Assembly: GCA_022340665.1 (NCBI GenBank)
Contig: JAJDNM010000020.1
Span: 1-53,004, forward strand
Reading direction: 5' to 3'
Source of the DNA: Acidobacteriota bacterium
GTDB lineage: Bacteria > Acidobacteriota > Thermoanaerobaculia > Thermoanaerobaculales > Sulfomarinibacteraceae
Length of the DNA: 53,004 nucleotides
How positions within the stretch are numbered: the stretch's first letter is position 1; the number at the start of each line of letters is the position of its first letter. Made by a program: the position numbers and the translations under genes. Below the pieces are notes generated by a model. That model was not told the origin of the DNA. It did not search any database and was given only the letters and a program-made list of their open reading frames with translations. Of the stretch, positions 29,470 through 42,352 are shown one piece after another.

Positions 29470-29667
29470 AGCGTGCATCTGCGCTTCGCGCCGAAGTGCT
29501 ATCGAGAGTCAATCACGATCTCCAGCCACGATCTGCACTAAGGGGCCTCATTCGAGTTACTTAACCGATTGTACATATTGTCAGACATACAAGTATAAGA
29601 AAACAAAAGATTTCTCCCTCTTGACAGTTCAGGAATCTTTCCGACAATGGAGTCGGAGGACCGTGCT
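29470..29667 (+). promoter_or_regulatory. AT-rich promoter region of the multiheme cytochrome gene
   Basis: This 198-base spacer is markedly more AT-rich than its surroundings between 29560 and 29640. Candidate elements are TATAAG (29594-29599) with TTGTAC 19 bases upstream, and a TTGACA near 29621 whose matching GACAAT would give a start at the Shine-Dalgarno. I cannot choose between them. Confidence 0.35.
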
Positions 29668-31728
29668 ATGCCTCGGTGGATTTCCCCGCGTTTCATCTCC
29701 CGTCAACTCGCTCTTCCCATTCTCGTCGCGGTTGCGTTCTGGGGCTTGGTCGGTGGCGGAACGGTGGTCGCTCAGGAAGAGGAGTACGAGCCGATCGACA
29801 GCACCGCCTGCGCCGACTGCCACGAGGCCACCCGATACGGGTCCGCCTTTGCCGATGACATCTCGCACTCCGCACACGATGGTCTCGAGTGTCTCGACTG
29901 CCACGTTGATCGCGACACCGTTCCCCACCGCTCGCTGGAGGAGACGTTCTTCCCGGGCTGTCAGGGATGCCGCACCTGCCACGAGGAAGCGTCGGAGGAA
30001 TATCAGGCGCACGGCCGCGCCCGGCTCGGCTCGTGCGAAGACATGCCGCAGTGTTCGGACTGCCACGGTTCACACGACATCCTGCCGTCGACCGCCGCGC
30101 GGTCCTCCGTTCACCCGACCAATCTTCCCCAGACCTGCGGCACATGCCACGAAAACCTCGACATCACGACAAAGTACGACATTCTGATCGACCACCCGAT
30201 CCAGATCTACGCGCGTTCCGTCCACGGACAGGCGACCCGCGGCGGCGTCTACGTGGCCGCGAGCTGTAATGACTGCCACTCCTCCGGCGGCACCGCACAT
30301 AAGATCCTGTCTCCGGGGTCCCCGGATTCGAGCATCAACCACTTCAACATCCCGAAGACCTGTGGCCAGTGCCACAAGGGCATCGAATCCGACTACTGGG
30401 AGGGCATCCACGGCCAGCTGGTGGCACGGGGAGAGACCGACGCACCGGTGTGCACCGACTGCCATGGTGAACACGGCATCCTGTCGCCAGACGATCCGCT
30501 GTCGCCGGTGTCCGGATCGAAGGTCGCCGAGATGACCTGCTCGCCGTGTCACGAATCGGCGGTGCTCAACGAGAAATACGGCATCAAGACCGAGCGTTTG
30601 ACGACCTTCATTGATTCCTACCACGGGCTCAAGTCGAAGGCCGGCGACACCCACGTCGCGAATTGCGCGTCGTGCCACGGCGTCCACCGGATTCTGCCGA
30701 GCTCGGACCCGACCTCTACAGTCAATCCGGCAAACCTGCAGCACACCTGCGGTGAATGCCACCCGAATATCTCCGAGAAGATGGCGTCGACGCCGATACA
30801 TGGTCTTGGCGGCCAGGGGCTGCGCACCCCAGCGGCAGACGTCGTCGAGAAGATCTACATCGTTGCCATCACAGTGATCATCGGGCTGATGATCCTCCAC
30901 TGGGTCATCGACCTCATGCGCCACCTCGCGGACAGGATCAAGGAGCGCCCGGCGGTCCTTCGCATGCATATCGACGAGGTCGTCCAGCACGCGCTGCTCA
31001 CGATCACGTTCATAACCCTGGTGATTTCTGGTTTCGCTCTCCGATACGACCAGGGCTTCATGGCGCGCTTCTTCTTCGGATGGGAAGGAGGATTCGAGAT
31101 CCGCGGCGTGGTCCACCGAGCTGCAGCGATCGGATTCATGATCACGATCATCTGGCATGTGCTGTACCTCTTCTCTCCGAGAGGCCGCACGTTCATCAAG
31201 GACATGTGGCCGATCAAGCGCGACTTCCAGTTCTTCGCCCGCCGCATGCTCTACAACCTCGGGCTGCGTCCGCGGATGGAGTGCGTCCAACGATTCAACT
31301 ACGTCGAAAAGGCGGAGTACTGGGCACTGGTGTGGGGCACGGTGGTCATGGTCATTACCGGTGTCATGCTTTGGTTCGACAACTGGTTCATCCAGTTCCT
31401 TCCGAAAGGGGTCCTCGACGTCGCCCTGGTGATTCACTTCTGGGAGGCCTGGCTGGCCTCATTGGCGATTCTGATCTGGCACTTCTACTCGGTAATCTTC
31501 CATCCCCACGTCTACCCGATGAACCCGAGCTGGATCACCGGCCATGTGCCAGAGGATATGTACGAACATGAGCACCCGGGCCACCTCGAAGAGGCACGAC
31601 GGGAAACAGAGCGGGTCATCGACCGTCGCATCGAACGCATGCGCAAAAGGGACTCCCAGACCGATCAGGAGGAACAGCCGAAGACAGAGGCGAAACCGAA
31701 AGAGGACACCGAAGACGACGAGTCGTGA
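29668..31728 (+). CDS. Eleven-heme cytochrome c fused to a membrane cytochrome b domain
   Basis: 686 residues from the ATG at 29668, which has GGAGG eight bases upstream. A signal/anchor segment (about 10-36) exports the N-terminal domain, which contains eleven CxxCH heme c sites between residues 48 and 365 (CADCH, CLDCH, CRTCH, CSDCH, CGTCH, CNDCH, CGQCH, CTDCH, CSPCH, CASCH, CGECH) and many extra His ligands. Residues 380-625 form a cytochrome b561-like membrane domain with at least four helices and His pairs (ILHWVIDLMRH, VVHRAAAIGFM, IWHVLYLF, VIHFWEAW, LIWHFYSVIFHPHVYP). The tail is highly charged. The design recalls CbcL-type quinol dehydrogenases of metal reducers. Electron donor quinol and acceptor are inferred only. 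Confidence 0.88.
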   Translation: MPRWISPRFISRQLALPILVAVAFWGLVGGGTVVAQEEEYEPIDSTACADCHEATRYGSAFADDISHSAHDGLECLDCHVDRDTVPHRSLEETFFPGCQGCRTCHEEASEEYQAHGRARLGSCEDMPQCSDCHGSHDILPSTAARSSVHPTNLPQTCGTCHENLDITTKYDILIDHPIQIYARSVHGQATRGGVYVAASCNDCHSSGGTAHKILSPGSPDSSINHFNIPKTCGQCHKGIESDYWEGIHGQLVARGETDAPVCTDCHGEHGILSPDDPLSPVSGSKVAEMTCSPCHESAVLNEKYGIKTERLTTFIDSYHGLKSKAGDTHVANCASCHGVHRILPSSDPTSTVNPANLQHTCGECHPNISEKMASTPIHGLGGQGLRTPAADVVEKIYIVAITVIIGLMILHWVIDLMRHLADRIKERPAVLRMHIDEVVQHALLTITFITLVISGFALRYDQGFMARFFFGWEGGFEIRGVVHRAAAIGFMITIIWHVLYLFSPRGRTFIKDMWPIKRDFQFFARRMLYNLGLRPRMECVQRFNYVEKAEYWALVWGTVVMVITGVMLWFDNWFIQFLPKGVLDVALVIHFWEAWLASLAILIWHFYSVIFHPHVYPMNPSWITGHVPEDMYEHEHPGHLEEARRETERVIDRRIERMRKRDSQTDQEEQPKTEAKPKEDTEDDES

Positions 31729-32072: not shown

Positions 32073-33179
32073 TTGATTGTCGGTGTCGCAGCCAGCATCA
32101 AGATCGCCCTCAGCAACGTCCTGCTCGGCATTTCCGGTCTCTTGTGGTTGGCCGTTCTGGTCCGAGGATTCGCGCGTCGTCCCCGCGCATCTATCCTGGT
32201 GCCGCTCGCGGGATACGCGGTCGTCTCCGTCGCCTCCGCCCTGTGGTCCGCCGACCCGCGACACAGCGTTACCGAACTCGCGGACCTGCTGACTCTCGCG
32301 CTCGTGCCAATGATAATTTCGATGCTCGACCAGCGCAGATGGGATCGGCTCCTGATGCTCCTTGCAGCAGTTCTTGCCGCCTCTGCTACGACTGGGCTCA
32401 TGCAATATGTACTTTCTGGAGACCCCATCCACAACCGGATCCGAGGATTCGCCACCCACTACATGACCTTTTCAGGTTGGACCCTGGTCGTGACCCTGGT
32501 GCTGCTCGGCCGCGTTTTCTTCGACTGGAATCGGCGCCACCTGCTGTGGGCGCTGCCGGCCGCCGCTCTCGGTGTGGCAACTCTCCTGCTCGGCCTCACC
32601 CGCGGCGCCTGGATCGGTTTGGCAACCGGCCTCCTGCTCGCCGTCGCCGCCGGCCGGCCCCGGACTCTGGTCATGCTGCCACTCGTGATTTCCCTGCTCG
32701 TGCTTCTCACGCCACAGCCGGTATTGCACCGTGCAGCGACAACCCTCAACCCCGGTGATGCCGCGACCAGAGCGCGGCTCGGCATGTTTCGATCCGGGAT
32801 GGGAATGGTGCAAGACCACCCCTTCCTCGGCCTCGGCCCCGGGTTGGTGCAACCCGCATTCGCGGATTACCGTCGCCCGAACGGGCCCGAGCGAATCCCG
32901 CACCTGCACAACAACGTCATCCAGATCGCCGCCGAACGGGGCCTCGCCGGTTTGGCGGCCTATCTGGCGGTCCTGATTGTCTTCGCGACCCACGTTGTCA
33001 GGGCCGTTCGGTTTGGGCCGACCGAGGCGAGGCCAGCGGTCATCGGTTGTGCGATGGCGGTTGCGGGGGTGACGGCGGCGGGTTTGTTCGAGTACAACTG
33101 GGGGGATGCAGAGGTCTGGATCGTGACCCTGACAAGCCTGAGCGCGCCGTTTGCCCTCGCGCCCCGGGGATCGAAATGA
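32073..33179 (+). CDS. O-antigen ligase-like membrane protein
   Basis: 368 residues with about ten to eleven membrane segments and a periplasmic loop typical of the WaaL/RfaL-Wzy family: RSGMGMVQDHPFLGLGPGLV, then HLHNNVIQIAAERGLAGLAAYL (His-rich ligase motif, in parts). It should join polysaccharide to lipid A core or to another acceptor. Start choice is uncertain: TTG at 32073 has no ribosome site, while an in-frame CTG at 32040 overlaps the previous stop and sits nine bases after GAGGAG, adding eleven residues (TRLENTAAALL after the start). The stop overlaps xseA (ATGA). Confidence 0.88.
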   Translation: MIVGVAASIKIALSNVLLGISGLLWLAVLVRGFARRPRASILVPLAGYAVVSVASALWSADPRHSVTELADLLTLALVPMIISMLDQRRWDRLLMLLAAVLAASATTGLMQYVLSGDPIHNRIRGFATHYMTFSGWTLVVTLVLLGRVFFDWNRRHLLWALPAAALGVATLLLGLTRGAWIGLATGLLLAVAAGRPRTLVMLPLVISLLVLLTPQPVLHRAATTLNPGDAATRARLGMFRSGMGMVQDHPFLGLGPGLVQPAFADYRRPNGPERIPHLHNNVIQIAAERGLAGLAAYLAVLIVFATHVVRAVRFGPTEARPAVIGCAMAVAGVTAAGLFEYNWGDAEVWIVTLTSLSAPFALAPRGSK

Positions 33180-34600: not shown

Positions 34601-34832
34601 CAAGAAGAAAAAGGTTGATCGGTTCGAAGACCAGTTGGCCCAACTGGAGGACATCGTGGACCGTCTCGAGGATGAATCCGTAGGCCTGGAAGAAGCCCTC
34701 GGTCTCTTCGAAAGCGGTATGGACCTGGCGCGCCGTTGCCGTGCCCGCCTGGCTGAGGTCGAGCACCGGGTGACCCAGCTCCTGGAGACGGAAAATGAGG
34801 ACGACGAAGCCGCCGACGAGGACGCCGAGTGA
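34593..34832 (+). CDS. xseB: Exodeoxyribonuclease VII small subunit
   Basis: 79 residues. The pair of helices typical of XseB is clear (FEDQLAQLEDIVDRLEDES, GLEEALGLFESGMDLARRCR) followed by an acidic tail. GAGCAG precedes the ATG, which lies inside the end of xseA. The stop overlaps the GTG of the prenyl synthase (GTGA). xseA-xseB-ispA is a widespread gene order. Confidence 0.95.
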   Translation: MSDKKKKVDRFEDQLAQLEDIVDRLEDESVGLEEALGLFESGMDLARRCRARLAEVEHRVTQLLETENEDDEAADEDAE

Positions 34833-35731
34833 CCGTTGAGCGCCTGCTCGCTCGTGAGAGGGCAGTGGTCGAGACCGCTCTCCGGGAGCTCCTTCCCCCT
34901 TCGGGGGCCTGGCCGGAGCGCTTGTGGACGGCAATGGAGTATGCGGTCTTCGCCGGCGGGAAGCGCGTCAGGCCAGTGCTGGCCCGTCTCGCGTACCGTG
35001 CGGCGGGAGGGGACCCAGACGAGATCACCCGTGCCGCGTGTGGCCTCGAGCTGATCCACACCTACTCGCTGGTCCACGACGACCTCCCGGCGCTCGATGA
35101 CGACGTGCTGCGCCGAGGCCATCCAACGATCCATGTCGCCTTCGACGAGGCGACAGCGATCCTGGTCGGAGACGCCCTGCTCACGGAAGGGCTCCTCCAG
35201 CTCTCGCGCCATCCTGAAGGTGATGAATGGGCAAAAAGACGTGTCGAGGCCGTCGAGATGGTCGCCGATGCCGTTTCGGCGCGCGGGATGATTGGTGGAC
35301 AGGTTGAGGATCTGGAAGCAACCGGACTCGTCGAGAACAGCAACGAGGATCTGCAGACACGACTCGAGCGCATCCATCGACACAAGACGGGCTGCCTGCT
35401 GAGAGCCTCGGTCGAGCTGGGCGCGATTCTGGGAGGCGTCGAAACCTCGCTTCGCACGCTGTTCTCCGGGTACGGGGAGGAACTCGGTCTTGCATTCCAG
35501 ATCGCGGACGACATCCTCGATTCCACAGCCGACGCAAAGAAGCTCGGTAAGAGCCCCGGAAAGGACGAAGCCGGCGGCAAGCTGACCTACGTCACCCTGT
35601 ACGGCATCGATTTGGCCCGACACCGCCTCGACGAGCTCGAGCATCAACTCGTCGAGAAGGCGCAGGCGATCGAAGGCGTGGATGGTGAACTCGCCGCTGT
35701 GGCGCGATTTGTCTGTCGACGGAAGTCATAA
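34829..35731 (+). CDS. ispA: Short-chain polyprenyl (farnesyl) diphosphate synthase
   Basis: Condenses isopentenyl diphosphate with allylic diphosphates. 300 residues. First aspartate-rich motif DDLPALDDD (about 89-97), second DDILD (near 229-233), the GGKRVRP pyrophosphate-binding motif and KTGCLLRASVELGA are in place. The residue before the first motif is Tyr-Ser-Leu-Val-His, in line with a C15 product, but chain length cannot be proved. No dxs gene follows, unlike in many genomes; a repeat-filled spacer ends the unit. Confidence 0.93.
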   Translation: MTVERLLARERAVVETALRELLPPSGAWPERLWTAMEYAVFAGGKRVRPVLARLAYRAAGGDPDEITRAACGLELIHTYSLVHDDLPALDDDVLRRGHPTIHVAFDEATAILVGDALLTEGLLQLSRHPEGDEWAKRRVEAVEMVADAVSARGMIGGQVEDLEATGLVENSNEDLQTRLERIHRHKTGCLLRASVELGAILGGVETSLRTLFSGYGEELGLAFQIADDILDSTADAKKLGKSPGKDEAGGKLTYVTLYGIDLARHRLDELEHQLVEKAQAIEGVDGELAAVARFVCRRKS

Positions 35732-35928: not shown

Positions 35929-36001
35929 ATTGTGGTTTTTCTGTCAATGATGGCGGCCATCTCTGGACGATGCAGCTGCACTTCGGGTACTGTTGAATCT
36001 G

Positions 36002-39000
36002 ATGTTGCGGAAACGCACCTTACTTCTTTTCCTGCTCGCTTTTGTCCTACGACTCATCCTTCAAGGGTGGGACTTCGGCGTAACCTCCTCATCGTCCCAT
36101 CCGGACGAAAGGCAAGTGGGGTTCGTCACCGAACGGGCAGAAGGATGGTTCGATGATCCTGAGTTCTATGCCTACGGTTCGCTCCACTTTCAGGTCATCC
36201 ACCTGACCGCGACCATTCTCGGTGTCGGCGACAACATTCGTGGATACATCGTCAGTGGACGGGCAATCTCGTTGATGGCGTCGATGATCGCCATCTTCCT
36301 CGGCTGGTTCATCGCCACCCGATCGTGGGGACGGAGAACCGGCGATCTCTTCGTATTCCTGGCAGCCTGGGTACCTCTCGATCTTCAACAATCACACTTC
36401 ACGACGGTCGAGGCACACCACGCAGCATGGGTCATGGCGGCGCTCGCAGCATGCATCTGGCTCGCCCATAGCGGGCGACCGATTGCGGCAGCCGCTTCGG
36501 GTGCCGCGATCGGTGCCTCGCTGGCGGTCAAGGTCGCATCTCTCGCACTTGGCCTTCCGCTTCTCGCGGCGGCGCTGATTGCCGCCCGCGGCCGAGGTGT
36601 GCTGGAGGCGATTCGGCTTCTCGCCATCGCCGGTGCCGCCGGCATGACCTGCTTCTGGCTCTGCCAGCCGTGGGCATTTGCCGGCGGCCGGCCGCCGATC
36701 AGCATCGTTGCGACGGCAGTCGTCGCCGCTGCAGCCATCGGGCTGGCCGATCGCACGTCTGGTGGCGCGAGGACGGTCTCTCTGGTCGTCGTGTGCATCG
36801 CCTGTGTTGTCGTAATGCTTCAGGGCGCAGCACTTCTCGGCATCGGCGGCGAACGGATCATCGGCAGGAGCGGTTCGGCGGCCCTCGTCGGCACTACTCT
36901 CAACCCGTCCTATCTGGAGGGTGTCGGCCACGAGATCGCGATGGTCACCGGTGCCTCCGATCTGGCCTACGTGCGGGTCTATGCGCACACGCTTCCGGTG
37001 CTCTATCCGCTGCGTGAGCTCGCTCTCTGGGGCTGGGGCGTCTTCCTGCTGCTCGCCGCGATCGCGGGTTCAGTCGCGGGCTGCTGGCGGCTGGGAGTTC
37101 GGTGGCGGCGGTGGTTGGATCGCCGCTGGACCGACTCCTCGATCCTCTTCGTGATCCTCGCTACATGGTTGCTGCCAATGGCCTCGAGGTTGAGCACTCT
37201 ACAGGTTAAGTTCCTCCGCTACTGGGAGCCCCTGACGGTGCCAGCGGCGTTGATCGCCGCCTGGTGGCTTCTGCGACTTCCGAAGAAGATACGAACTCCC
37301 GCAATCGCGGTAGTGGCTGCCGGCACAGCGCTGTGGGGTCTCGCCTATACCTGGTCCTTTGTCGAACCTCATCCCCATCGCACCGCTTCGAGGTGGCTCG
37401 GTCCGATGCTTGCTGACGAACAGGTCGTGGCCTTTGAACACTGGGACGAGCACATCAATTTGATGATTGAAGACGGTGCTGTGGAGACGGTCGATCTGCC
37501 ATCATACGACCTGCCTGACGATGGACAGAAGGTCGAGACCTGGACCAGCGCACTCGCTCGTGCCGACTGGGTGATCCTGACCTCCAACCGCGTCTGCAGA
37601 ACCGTACTCGCCAACCAGGACCGCTTCGAGAAGACGGCGCGACTCTACAAGCTGTTGTTGTCAGGAAATGCAGGCTTCGAAGTTCTGACCCGGGTGAACC
37701 GAGGTCCGAGGATCTTCGGTGTCCGGCTGCCCGTACAGCGGGCAGACGAGAGCTTCCTCAACTACGAGTTTCCGCAGGTCGTTATCCTTCGCCGCATCGC
37801 CGATGTCAACCCCGGGGAACTGACCGAACGAGTCAGACGGCCGCTGCCCTACCTCGAGGACATGGCCTACGCGGACATCGAACGCCACTTCCTGGCCGAG
37901 GTTCCGGAGCTGCCCCCGGTGCCAACCAAACCGCGTCAACTCTTCGACCTCACGATCTGGATTCTTCTTTTTTCGGGACTCGGTTTGGCGTCCTGGGGAC
38001 TGCTGCTGCCGATCTCCAAAAGTTGGCCGGATACAGGCGCCGGTCTGGCGCTGGTGACCGGGTGGATCGTGCCTGCGTGGCTAATGTGGATGGGCTCGGA
38101 ACTTCGAATCTGGGAAATCGGCCCGGCTACCGCCACATGGATCACACTCGCCCTGATGGCGGCGGGCGGCGTCGCCATCTTCAGGCGATGGTCCGTGATC
38201 AAGGACATTTTCCGCCGACGGAGATCCTCGGTCCTCATGGTGTTGGCAGTGACGGCAACTGTTGGCGCCCTGTTCCTCGTAGTGCGTGCCTGGAACCCGG
38301 CCATCCACTGGGGCGAAAAGCCGATGGACTTTTCGTTCCTCAACGCCTTTCTTCGTGCCCCGAACTGGCCGACTGGAGAGCCCTGGATGGCAGGGATGCC
38401 TCTCCACTACTACTACTTCGGCGAGGTGCTCGCCGCCTACCCGATCCTGGTAGCGGGCTGTACTGCAGGGGTGGGTTATAACCTGATCTGCGGGACCATC
38501 CCCGCCCTCTTCGCATCAGTTCTCGCCGGCCTCGGGCTCCTGCTCGGCCGCCGGTTTCCGATTCGAAAGCAGTGGCAGATTGCCGCTGCTTCGGTGTTGC
38601 CGTTGCTGGTGCTGCTGACCGGCAACCTCGCCTGGCCATGGCTGCTCGATACCTTGAAGACGGGCAACCTGTTCGATCTGTGGTGGGCAACATCCCGTGT
38701 GGTACCTGGGTTTGCGATCGATGAATATCCCTTGTGGACGACTCTCTTCGCCGATCTACACGGCCATTTCATCGCCTTCCCTGTTCTCGTCACCACGTTT
38801 GCGTGGGGCTGGCTCTGCGTCACGGCCCGGGATCGGAAATGGATCGCTGCGGCCTTCCTATGCGGCATCGGCGCGGCGGTTGTCGTCGCCACCAACCCCT
38901 GGGATTTGTTCATCCTCACCGGCGCGTTGGGGGTGGGTACGATTGTGGCAGCCCGCCGCCCCTTCCGCGGTCTCGCACGACTGGGTGCCGCGGCGACTCT

Positions 39001-41539
39001 CAGCGTACTCGCCGCCGCACCCTTTATCGTCGAGCTGGTGGCCGGCATCAGCGCCGGCGCGGGTGAGCGCGGACTATTCCTCACCGCCGCCGATTTCGCG
39101 CCAGCCTGGGCGATCCTGCGACACTTCGGACTGTTCATCATCCCGCTCACCGTCCTCGCGATCGTCCTCCTCGGCCGCCGTTTCTGGATCGTGCTGCCAA
39201 CCGCCGCCCTCGGGACAATTGTCGGGCTCAGCTTCAGGTCGAGCGCTGCGGCCTTCGCGCTCGCCATCCTTGCCGTCTTCGCGACGATGACGGTCCGTTC
39301 GAAGAATCGCCTCGATCGCCTTGCCTGGTCGATGGCCGGTCTTGGCATGCTCGCGGTTGCAGCCTGCGAGCGCTTCACCCTGATCGATCGCATGAACACG
39401 ATCTTCAAGATCTACAATGGAGTCTGGGTATTGCTGGCGTTCGCACTCGGCGCCGCCCTACTGCGGACACGCGGCCGGAAACTGGCCGTCCTGCTGGCTG
39501 TATGGGTTCCGCTGCAACTCGTCGCCCTCGCCAATCTTCCGTTGGGCATCGCTCAGGGCTGGAAGCTGCCGCGAATGACATCGCCGCGCCCGACCCTCGA
39601 CGGTCAGGCGTTTCTCGCCACACAAGACCCCGAGACCTGGTTCCTCGTCCGGTCTCTCCAGGGCGTCGCCCGGCCCGGTCAGGCCATCGCCGAAGCGGCC
39701 GGTCCCTACTACAGCGAAGTCACCCGCATCACCATGCACACTGGCCAGCCGACTGTGGTCGGATGGGACTGGCATCTCAAGCAACGCGGTCAACCGCCTG
39801 CCGAAATTGCCGCGCGCTTCGAGGATCTCGACCTGCTGTACCGAGGCGGGAACACGAGCCAGCGCCGCGCAGTCCTCGATCGGTATGCCGTTGCCTGGGC
39901 AGTGGCCGCACAGGTCGAGCGCAACCGTTATGGGATCGATGCCGAGGACCCCCTGGGCGATATCGACGGCGTGCTCGAGATGGCCGAACGCGACGGCGCG
40001 GTTCTTTACCGGGTACTACCGACCGGCGGTCCAACCAAACGGACCATTCTGCCGGCAGCCGAGATTCCACCCGGCATGAATCTCTTCGGCAGGCTGGTCG
40101 ACCCGGGCGACCAGATTGTCCGCTCCATGGCCCTCGACGACTCCGGCGCGACGGCTATTCTGGCCAACGGAAATATCGTCGACTTCAACCTCGAGGCCAA
40201 ACGCAACCGTAACCTGGCCGCCCCTCCGTGCGAATCTTCCGGGATTGCCCGACGCCGCAGCGAGCGATGGGCAATCTGCCGCAACGGCAGCACCTGGCGT
40301 CTCGCCGGGAATCGATGGGTCGGCGAGGGGCAGGTCGGTGGAGCGACAGGGCTGGCTGCCGATGGTGATCTGTGGGCCTGGGGGCCTGGAGGGATCTGGC
40401 GATACCAGGGCACTTCAAACTGGCGCCAGACCGTCGCGGCCGCGGTCACGGCAGCGGCCGCTCGAGGACAGCAGATCGCTTGGAGCGACGGCGCGAATAT
40501 CTGGATCGGTGACTACGGTCGGCCGGGCAAGGTTGGAGCAGCCCTCGAAGATGTCCGCGCCCTCGCCTGGCAGGGCGACGTTCTCTGGGCGCTCGCCGCA
40601 GACGGACTTCATCGGGCCGGCAGCACCGACCTCCCGTGGCGAACGGTGACCAACGGCTCCGATCCTCTGTTGGCCATGGCCGGTTCGACAAACTCTCTCT
40701 GGCTCGTGAACCGGGATGGTTTCGTTCTCCGGCCCGAACGCCACTCGTGCCCGTCTCCCTGGACCACCGGGGGCACCCTGGGTGCTGGCTTCCTGCACGA
40801 GCCGCGTGGCCTGGCAGTCTCGCCGCGGGGTTGGTTCGCGGTTGCCGACACATTCAATCACCGCATCCTCTGGTACACGGCCGAAGGCCGCTGTCTCGAC
40901 GAGATCGGTTCGGAGGGAACCGCTGCTGGAGAATTCCGCGAGCCCTCGGGTATCGCACTCGCGGGCGACGGATCACTGGCCGTTGCCGACACCTGGAACG
41001 GCCGCATCCAGGTGCTTCGGCCGAATGGCGTCACCGAGGTATTCGGCAGGAACCTCTTTGGTCCGCGGGGCCTGTTGTGGGCGCCCGACGGATCGCTGCT
41101 GGTGTCGGACACCGGCAACAAGCGACTCCTCCAGTTCTCGCCACCCGGATGGAAACAAGAGGACGTTGTCCGCCTTCCGGGACAGCCGGTTGGACTCGCG
41201 TGGTCGGCTGGCCTGCTTGCGGTCGCCACCCCGGCGGACGGCGCCCTCTTCCTGGTCGATGTGCCGTCCAGAGAGATCGTGCGAAGGATCGACCTTCGCT
41301 GTTGGAACTCGCACGACCAACAGGAAGCCTACCTGGCCACATTGCCCTCGGGCGAGATCGTCGCCAGTTCGCCCCAATACGGCGAGCTGTGGGCCATCGA
41401 TCCCACCGGGGACGATTCGCAACGGCTGCTGCACGACGGTCTCGACGGGATCACCGCCATCGCCCTCATGCCCGACGGAAACCTGCTCGCTTCACTCACC
41501 TGGGCAAACCGGCTGGTGAAGGTCCCGATCGAGGAATGA
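36002..41539 (+). CDS. PMT-like glycosyltransferase / YYY (DUF2298) / NHL-propeller fusion
   Basis: 1845 residues from the ATG at 36002; a TTG nine bases upstream is the alternative, and neither has a good ribosome site. Residues 1-450 are a multi-helix membrane domain with SSSSHPDER near the first loop (Asp35-Glu36), the DE motif of PMT/GT39-type lipid-sugar-dependent transferases. About 450-640 is a soluble segment. About 645-1180 is a second membrane block holding MPLHYYYFGEVLAAYP with YYY at 803-805, FADLHGHF and ATNPWDLF, which matches the Chlor_Arch_YYY/DUF2298 family of unknown function. About 1360-1840 is a beta-propeller with NHL repeats (EPRGLAVSPRGWFAVADTFN, EPSGIALAGDGSLAVADTWN, GPRGLLWAPDGSLLVSDTGN). 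It stands alone between repeats. Confidence 0.85.
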   Translation: MLRKRTLLLFLLAFVLRLILQGWDFGVTSSSSHPDERQVGFVTERAEGWFDDPEFYAYGSLHFQVIHLTATILGVGDNIRGYIVSGRAISLMASMIAIFLGWFIATRSWGRRTGDLFVFLAAWVPLDLQQSHFTTVEAHHAAWVMAALAACIWLAHSGRPIAAAASGAAIGASLAVKVASLALGLPLLAAALIAARGRGVLEAIRLLAIAGAAGMTCFWLCQPWAFAGGRPPISIVATAVVAAAAIGLADRTSGGARTVSLVVVCIACVVVMLQGAALLGIGGERIIGRSGSAALVGTTLNPSYLEGVGHEIAMVTGASDLAYVRVYAHTLPVLYPLRELALWGWGVFLLLAAIAGSVAGCWRLGVRWRRWLDRRWTDSSILFVILATWLLPMASRLSTLQVKFLRYWEPLTVPAALIAAWWLLRLPKKIRTPAIAVVAAGTALWGLAYTWSFVEPHPHRTASRWLGPMLADEQVVAFEHWDEHINLMIEDGAVETVDLPSYDLPDDGQKVETWTSALARADWVILTSNRVCRTVLANQDRFEKTARLYKLLLSGNAGFEVLTRVNRGPRIFGVRLPVQRADESFLNYEFPQVVILRRIADVNPGELTERVRRPLPYLEDMAYADIERHFLAEVPELPPVPTKPRQLFDLTIWILLFSGLGLASWGLLLPISKSWPDTGAGLALVTGWIVPAWLMWMGSELRIWEIGPATATWITLALMAAGGVAIFRRWSVIKDIFRRRRSSVLMVLAVTATVGALFLVVRAWNPAIHWGEKPMDFSFLNAFLRAPNWPTGEPWMAGMPLHYYYFGEVLAAYPILVAGCTAGVGYNLICGTIPALFASVLAGLGLLLGRRFPIRKQWQIAAASVLPLLVLLTGNLAWPWLLDTLKTGNLFDLWWATSRVVPGFAIDEYPLWTTLFADLHGHFIAFPVLVTTFAWGWLCVTARDRKWIAAAFLCGIGAAVVVATNPWDLFILTGALGVGTIVAARRPFRGLARLGAAATLSVLAAAPFIVELVAGISAGAGERGLFLTAADFAPAWAILRHFGLFIIPLTVLAIVLLGRRFWIVLPTAALGTIVGLSFRSSAAAFALAILAVFATMTVRSKNRLDRLAWSMAGLGMLAVAACERFTLIDRMNTIFKIYNGVWVLLAFALGAALLRTRGRKLAVLLAVWVPLQLVALANLPLGIAQGWKLPRMTSPRPTLDGQAFLATQDPETWFLVRSLQGVARPGQAIAEAAGPYYSEVTRITMHTGQPTVVGWDWHLKQRGQPPAEIAARFEDLDLLYRGGNTSQRRAVLDRYAVAWAVAAQVERNRYGIDAEDPLGDIDGVLEMAERDGAVLYRVLPTGGPTKRTILPAAEIPPGMNLFGRLVDPGDQIVRSMALDDSGATAILANGNIVDFNLEAKRNRNLAAPPCESSGIARRRSERWAICRNGSTWRLAGNRWVGEGQVGGATGLAADGDLWAWGPGGIWRYQGTSNWRQTVAAAVTAAAARGQQIAWSDGANIWIGDYGRPGKVGAALEDVRALAWQGDVLWALAADGLHRAGSTDLPWRTVTNGSDPLLAMAGSTNSLWLVNRDGFVLRPERHSCPSPWTTGGTLGAGFLHEPRGLAVSPRGWFAVADTFNHRILWYTAEGRCLDEIGSEGTAAGEFREPSGIALAGDGSLAVADTWNGRIQVLRPNGVTEVFGRNLFGPRGLLWAPDGSLLVSDTGNKRLLQFSPPGWKQEDVVRLPGQPVGLAWSAGLLAVATPADGALFLVDVPSREIVRRIDLRCWNSHDQQEAYLATLPSGEIVASSPQYGELWAIDPTGDDSQRLLHDGLDGITAIALMPDGNLLASLTWANRLVKVPIEE

Positions 41540-41614: not shown

Positions 41615-42352
41615 TCAACTCCTGCGAAACACCGCCAGCTCTTCCAGATTGCCTTTCTGACCGCGGATCGGTGACTCGACAACGCCGACCAGCGCCAGGC
41701 CGAAATCTTTCAGCGAGCGAACGGTCTCGTCAATCACCCTCCGTCGCGTCGGTTCGTCGCGCACGATGCCGCCCTTGCCCACCTGCTCACGACCAGCCTC
41801 GAACTGCGGCTTGACAAGGCACACGAGCCAGGCTCCCGATGTCAGATGTGGTAGAAGAGCTGGAACCACAAGCCTGAGAGATATGAACGAAACGTCGACA
41901 GTCGCCAACGCCGCAACGAACGGCAGGTCCACGGTGTCCAGATGTCTCGCGTTCACGCCCTCCATCACAATCACCCGAGGGTCGTTGCGCAGACGCCAGT
42001 CGAGTTGACCACGACCAACGTCTAATGCGATCACGCGGTTTGCCCCCCGTTCGAGGAGCACATCGGTGAAACCGCCGGTGGACGATCCGATATCGAGGCA
42101 ATCGACACCCTCAGGCGAAATCGAAAAGGCGTCGAGTGCTGCGACCAGCTTGAGACCACCTCGAGACACCCACGGATGGTCGGGCTCGATGATCTCGATC
42201 TCCGCGTCTTCAGAAACCTGCGTGCCGGCCTTGCTCTCGACCGCCCCTTCGAGCATCACCCTGCCGGCGAGGATCAGAGCTTGCGCTCTGGACCGGGACG
42301 GCGCGAGGCCGCGCTCGGTGAGCACTACATCAAGGCGTTGTTTCTTGCCCAC
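41615..42352 (-). CDS. tlyA: TlyA-family rRNA 2'-O-methyltransferase
   Basis: 245 residues. An N-terminal S4 RNA-binding domain (about 5-65: RLDVVLTERGLAPSRSRAQA) is followed by an FtsJ-like Rossmann domain with the SAM loop DIGSSTGGFTDVLL and later VDVSFISL, VKPQFEAGRE. Family members methylate C1409/C1920 of 16S/23S rRNA in mycobacteria; some are called haemolysins, though that activity is indirect. Start is GTG with TACCAT exactly six bases before it, hence probably leaderless. Confidence 0.94.
   Translation of the reverse strand: MGKKQRLDVVLTERGLAPSRSRAQALILAGRVMLEGAVESKAGTQVSEDAEIEIIEPDHPWVSRGGLKLVAALDAFSISPEGVDCLDIGSSTGGFTDVLLERGANRVIALDVGRGQLDWRLRNDPRVIVMEGVNARHLDTVDLPFVAALATVDVSFISLRLVVPALLPHLTSGAWLVCLVKPQFEAGREQVGKGGIVRDEPTRRRVIDETVRSLKDFGLALVGVVESPIRGQKGNLEELAVFRRS

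Follow-up and report, generated by a model that had tools for sequence, protein, structure and literature searches.

A tandem GT-C-like membrane protein with an NHL propeller from an acidobacterium as a candidate extracytoplasmic glycosyltransferase

The locus and the architecture of the chain

The window, that is, the whole stretch of 53,004 nucleotides analysed here (contig JAJDNM010000020.1, positions 1 to 53,004, of the Acidobacteriota assembly GCA_022340665.1, family Sulfomarinibacteraceae), carries an open reading frame on the plus strand, 36002-41539, whose stop-free translation of 1845 residues joins, in this order, a PMT/ArnT-like membrane block (residues 1-640), a DUF2298/YYY block (643-1345) and an NHL propeller (about 1590-1845). 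The features considered below are the following:

34829..35731, +, polyprenyl (farnesyl diphosphate) synthase gene, ispA-like, upstream; neighbourhood conserved in the family
36002..41539, +, whole coding sequence of the PMT-like/YYY/NHL protein, 1845 aa; ATG start, with the TTG at 35993 as an alternative
36002..37921, +, block 1, residues 1-640, PMT/ArnT-like GT-C module with a C-terminal extracytoplasmic domain (about 455-640), from PMT_2, AlphaFold2 and Foldseek
36098..36112, +, HPDER (residues 33-37) in the first extracytoplasmic loop, with the putative catalytic acid pair D35-E36; invariant in 61/61 aligned sequences
37928..40036, +, block 2, residues 643-1345, DUF2298/Chlor_Arch_YYY module, from Pfam, NCBIfam, AlphaFold2 and Foldseek
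38312..38329, +, GEKPMD (771-776) in the first loop of block 2 (position taken from the model), with E772 as putative catalytic acid; E772 invariant in 66/66
38408..38422, +, YYYFG (803-807); Y803 and G807 invariant in 66/66
38723..38767, +, E908 and D918-x-H920-x-H922, a possible metal or pyrophosphate site; all four invariant in 66/66
39386..39400, +, DRMNT (1129-1133); R1130 and N1132 invariant in 66/66
40049..40768, +, Trp/Gly-rich stretch of about 240 residues (1350-1589), after the YYY block and ahead of the propeller; 36-51% identity to five relatives
40769..41536, +, NHL beta-propeller (1590-1845); matches NHL (E 1.6e-18) and NHL propellers in the PDB
41615..42352, -, TlyA-like S4/FtsJ methyltransferase gene, downstream and convergent; no functional link is supposed

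The initial annotation had read this frame as one fusion of a PMT-like transferase, a YYY domain and an NHL propeller, and the reading frame itself, the Pfam and NCBIfam searches and the relatives all agree with it. Proteins co-linear with the whole chain occur in the same genus and the same family (70, 59, 58, 58 and 54% identity, essentially full length), so that the single chain is no assembly accident, and a chance or frameshift fusion is likewise ruled out. Some genera of the same family encode a version of 1341-1398 aa which ends after the YYY block; thus, the tail was gained or lost inside one family.

The domain searches place the middle block firmly in DUF2298 (PF10060, residues 692-1145, E 2e-61, 208.9 bits against a cut-off of 27.8) and in TIGR03662, Chlor_Arch_YYY (650-1338, 316 bits against 300.25), that is, above both curated cut-offs, as the initial annotation had proposed from the YYYFG motif. 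The propeller at the end of the chain is equally well supported, with an NHL repeat near residues 1645-1671 when the whole protein is searched against Pfam (E 7.6e-15, 54.6 bits against 20), a stronger match when the last 256 residues are searched alone, and similarity of the latter to the solved NHL propellers of Thin (E 5e-37) and TRIM71 (E 2.1e-36). The label 'PMT-like' for the first block stands in part. The match of this protein to PMT_2 (PF13231) is weak, at E 1.9e-4 and 22.1 bits, under the cut-off of 26.1, and only marginal (26.2 bits) in a search of the genome with its neighbours; among thirteen relatives the match becomes clear (best E 2.8e-16), and the label gains further support from the predicted fold described below. 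The segment of about 240 residues ahead of the propeller had been overlooked earlier; residues 1350-1589 yielded no match in Pfam or the PDB, and possibly form a second, divergent propeller.

The giant gene adjoins ispA and/or tlyA in several of those relatives that have enough flanking sequence. We considered and rejected the proximity of ispA as functional evidence, which is weak because the xseA/ispA/tlyA surroundings resemble a neighbourhood of housekeeping genes. An O-antigen ligase (Wzy_C) gene (32073-33179) precedes xseA, ispA and the giant gene at a short distance, and a single open reading frame at 29647-31728 combines multiheme cytochrome c domains with a cytochrome b561 membrane domain.

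Predicted folds, invariant residues and topology

The AlphaFold2 models of block 1 (mean pLDDT 87.9, pTM 0.88) and block 2 (pLDDT 94.5, pTM 0.94) are both of the GT-C fold with a multi-helix core. In Foldseek searches of the PDB, all 37 best matches of block 1 were GT-C enzymes, including AglB (E 1.5e-9), OST/STT3, ArnT (1.9e-7), ALG9, ALG12, PglB, Pmt4 and the Emb proteins, and for block 2 the top ten were again all GT-C (probability 1.00), among them DPY19 (E 1.2e-6), AftA (2.5e-6), OST, AftD, ArnT and ALG12; for both blocks these matches are remote, with TM-scores of 0.3-0.5 and 10-16% identity, modest values as expected for remote GT-C families. Of the unrelated transporter-like helix bundles that rank below these for block 2, most have a probability of 0.05-0.15. 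Because the YYY block, too, is GT-C by its predicted fold, the chain would consist of two glycosyltransferase-like modules. The initial description of two polytopic modules and a propeller in one chain accordingly holds as to domains and order, and is amended in that the second module is not unrelated to the first. Neither of the two outcomes that it had named as refuting it was observed, since the middle block matches DUF2298 strongly and the first block is GT-C by fold. Direct comparison of the two block profiles gave a short match confined to the middle helices (probability 94.9, E 4.6e-8).

Block 1 resembles ArnT and PMT (GT39 and GT83-type) in its PMT_2 homology, the D-E pair of the first loop and its predicted fold, but is very divergent, has a C-terminal soluble domain of its own and is fused to YYY at nearly all of the loci seen. 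The nearest solved folds to block 2 are those of the DPY19 C-mannosyltransferase and the AftA arabinosyltransferase, to which it nevertheless bears no detectable sequence relation and from which it differs in its motifs (GEKPMD, YYYFG, E..D-x-H-x-H and DRMNT). Sequence comparison of DUF2298 with solved structures returned only chance matches to triosephosphate isomerase, and a sequence link between block 2 and the Agl23 family was rejected (E 0.065).

The HPDE acidic pair noted at the outset in the first membrane block occupies residues 33-36 and belongs to a set of positions invariant in all 61 aligned block-1 sequences: H33-P34-D35-E36-R37, R87, Q129, P223, R406, W481 and R530. In block 2, besides the motif residues given above, R899, W967, Y1237, H1258 and R1272 are invariant in all 66 aligned sequences, which take in stand-alone YYY proteins and second YYY copies. 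In GT-C enzymes such as ArnT, PglB and Pmt, the catalytic acid lies in the loop that follows the first core helix. The models place D35/E36 and E772 in the equivalent loop of their respective blocks, so that both blocks display the GT-C trait of a conserved acidic residue in the first extracytoplasmic loop.

Judged by hydropathy, charge and the models, the two first loops share one side of the membrane with every soluble part of the chain. K/R residues abound in most inner loops, one sampled loop being an exception, and are scarce in the first outer loops of both blocks; there is no convincing membrane helix after residue 1185, a single segment near 1736-1756 falling inside the propeller. From this topology, the soluble domains and the NHL propeller should be extracytoplasmic, in line with the location initially suggested for the propeller.

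Spread of the fusion and its genomic partners

A survey of 84,980 species genomes recovered at least 486 relatives, and the best 80 loci were analysed. They derive from Acidobacteriota, Chloroflexota, Myxococcota, Binatia, Oligoflexia, Verrucomicrobia/Kiritimatiellae, Schekmanbacteria and others, the nearest ones from Thermoanaerobaculia, Thermoanaerobaculales and Holophagae. Block 1 and YYY share one reading frame in 76 of these best 80 loci, mostly in Chloroflexota, Acidobacteriota and proteobacterial lineages, although retaining the best matches to a two-block query inflates this share. A unique fusion is thereby ruled out: the PMT-YYY fusion is an old and common architecture, and only the NHL tail is lineage-specific. 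The tail varies among loci, being NHL, TPR or absent; it is NHL-positive in 16 of the 76 fusions and in none of the records titled Chloroflexi. A few stand-alone copies of block 1 occur. In 25 of 43 long loci the fusion is joined by stand-alone YYY genes. At one locus (L033:6724-12874), a divergent reading frame on the minus strand encodes the membrane part of block 1, with the soluble part still fused to YYY on the plus strand; this is either a real split of block 1 or an inverted contig join.

In chains of the Chloroflexus type (L071, L050 and L073; 2521-2525 aa), block 1 is followed by two YYY copies and then a tail, which in L071 and L050 is TPR according to Pfam; another YYY gene comes next. 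These chains fit a class in the TIGR03662 entry that combines additional N-terminal sequence with a pair of YYY copies and TPRs, and the extra N-terminal region of that class is identified here as the PMT-like GT-C module. The giant protein differs from this class in having one YYY copy and an NHL tail instead of two copies and TPR. The PMT-YYY architecture is an existing and widespread one, which the TIGR03662 entry probably covers in part; the new elements appear to be the NHL-tailed version, the model-based assignment of DUF2298 to GT-C, judged apart from the Pfam clan listing, and the link to Agl23 and GtrB.

Among 149 Acidobacteriota genomes, which are kin and hence not independent samples, nine contain a strong DUF2298 match; Agl23 (TIGR03663) scores above its cut-off in all nine, compared with 15 of the 140 others, and a stand-alone DUF2298 gene adjoins the Agl23 gene on one contig in eight of the nine, sometimes with a GtrB-like lipid-sugar synthase gene as well. 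Agl23 is the genomic partner of DUF2298 and often bears an NHL tail of the same kind as the giant protein, from which it is distinct as a separate protein of a family, TIGR03663, to which block 1 does not belong. Compact cassettes occur in some genomes, with the order YYY, PMT-YYY, Agl23, GT2 (L087), GT2, YYY, PMT-YYY, Agl23 (L035), or Agl23-NHL, NHL, NHL, PMT-YYY-NHL, YYY (L107); in the last of these, two distinct components of the system bear NHL tails of one kind. A GtrB-type GT2 gene and a flippase gene are encoded together with the GT-C gene in L087, L035 and L031, and are dispersed in the source genome. The cassette is not universal, since a strict search found a GtrB-like GT2 in 2 and Agl23 in 12 of the 43 long loci.

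In the source genome, the giant gene adjoins neither Agl23, GT2 nor a stand-alone YYY gene. Contig C125 (L104:7744-10793) carries a stand-alone DUF2298 gene and a GtrB-like GT2 gene 29 bp apart on the same strand, divergent from gcpE/ispG, the GT2 being closest to GtrB sll0501 (E 3.4e-94). Contig C96 (L105:9327-11717), the only one with a TIGR03663 match in a search of this genome, encodes an Agl23 fused to an NHL propeller (797-800 aa); this gene adjoins a pilin-like GspH/N_methyl gene. Elsewhere, a PRK07233-type FAD oxidoreductase gene adjoins the stand-alone YYY gene in L029, L031, L038 and L083.

Candidate function and its alternatives

The protein probably attaches sugars to a cell-surface target from lipid-carried donors. 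The specific reading that we favour, and regard as rather likely, is that of a tandem GT-C glycosyltransferase acting on the outer side of the cytoplasmic membrane on polyprenyl-linked sugar donors, with a separate GT2, flipping of the Agl23 type and a propeller that holds the acceptor or a partner. A GtrB/Dpm-like GT2 would load a sugar onto polyprenyl phosphate inside the cell, and Agl23 or a similar carrier would flip the lipid-linked sugar; blocks 1 and 2 would then each take a sugar linked to polyprenyl phosphate (or pyrophosphate) out of the membrane and pass it on at the outer face, using D35/E36 and E772, respectively, as putative catalytic acids, the latter perhaps helped by E908 and D918-x-H920-x-H922. 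The propeller, outside, would most likely hold the acceptor or a partner protein. The general glycosylation function suggested initially is supported by the predicted folds, the invariant residues and the linkage to Agl23 and GT2. By contrast, the notion of a self-contained machine probably does not apply, because a GT2 that makes lipid-linked sugars and the flippase-associated Agl23 family occur alongside the chain as separate proteins.

The overall logic would be that of Gtr-type three-component systems. GT136 enzymes, GT-C proteins with outer carbohydrate-binding domains (CBM) and a three-part pathway, offer a precedent (PMC11127046). The proposed likeness lies in the combination of a lipid-P-sugar synthase, a flippase and a GT-C enzyme with an extra outer domain; the differences are Agl23 in place of GtrA or MATE, two GT-C modules per chain and a propeller instead of a CBM. 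The TMTC1-4 O-mannosyltransferases resemble the giant protein in joining a GT-C core to a long extracytoplasmic repeat domain but have a single GT-C core and TPR repeats and reside in the eukaryotic ER (PMC7801869).

The main rivals of this reading are a pair with one inactive module and a flippase-transferase fusion. One block could in practice be catalytically dead or regulatory, and PMT and Emb enzymes do act in pairs (Pmt1-Pmt2 and EmbA-EmbB entries are among the Foldseek matches), so that one module, probably YYY or block 1, might be a scaffold or acceptor-binding partner of a catalytic one; yet neither block varies at its putative catalytic residues in any of the aligned sequences, a constancy that a dead module would not need, and we deem such a pairing unlikely. 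Still less probable is a fusion in which block 1 mainly flips the lipid-linked sugar and the YYY block transfers it outside, leaving the chain nearly self-contained. A profile alignment of block 1 with Agl23 does extend over 324 columns and takes in the H-x-D-E motif (probability 98.7, E 2.7e-16), and the Agl23 of H. hispanica, a putative flippase of hexose-P-dolichol, flips lipid-linked oligosaccharide in liposomes as a purified protein (PMC11182771). However, block 1 is no closer to the Agl23 of the source genome (E 1.6e-6) than to ordinary PMT_2 proteins of that genome (2.8e-9, 1.4e-8 and 5.9e-8), so that a specific relationship to Agl23 is not supported and the flippase role is weakened; moreover, the NCBIfam search gave no TIGR03663 match to the giant protein at E<1, and separate Agl23 genes coexist with the fusion.

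That the protein is no glycosyltransferase, and reuses two GT-C-like folds for lipid handling, sensing or envelope assembly, its NHL propeller serving as a platform for binding, seems highly improbable. NHL propellers are usually binding domains, and we found no functional study or reported activity of DUF2298 in the literature searched; against this stand the invariant acidic, His and Arg residues at GT-C active-site positions, the PMT_2 homology and the linkage to Agl23 and, in places, to a GtrB-like synthase. The tandem glycosyltransferase that we favour can be taken further, albeit tentatively and with rather more doubt than confidence: the chain may be bifunctional, so that a single acceptor receives either two sugars or a sugar plus a linker, with Agl23 as the flippase. 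DUF2298 would then be a new family of GT-C enzymes, and three-component systems for extracytoplasmic glycosylation would include a third kind, common to Acidobacteriota, Chloroflexota and archaea.

Among the large families without an assigned function, DUF2298 would become a testable enzyme family through its predicted GT-C fold, its invariant putative active site, its fusion to a PMT-like GT-C module and its link to the lipid-glycan flippase Agl23. If this interpretation is true, it would point to a surface-glycosylation route in Acidobacteriota and Chloroflexota, phyla in which little is known of such routes.
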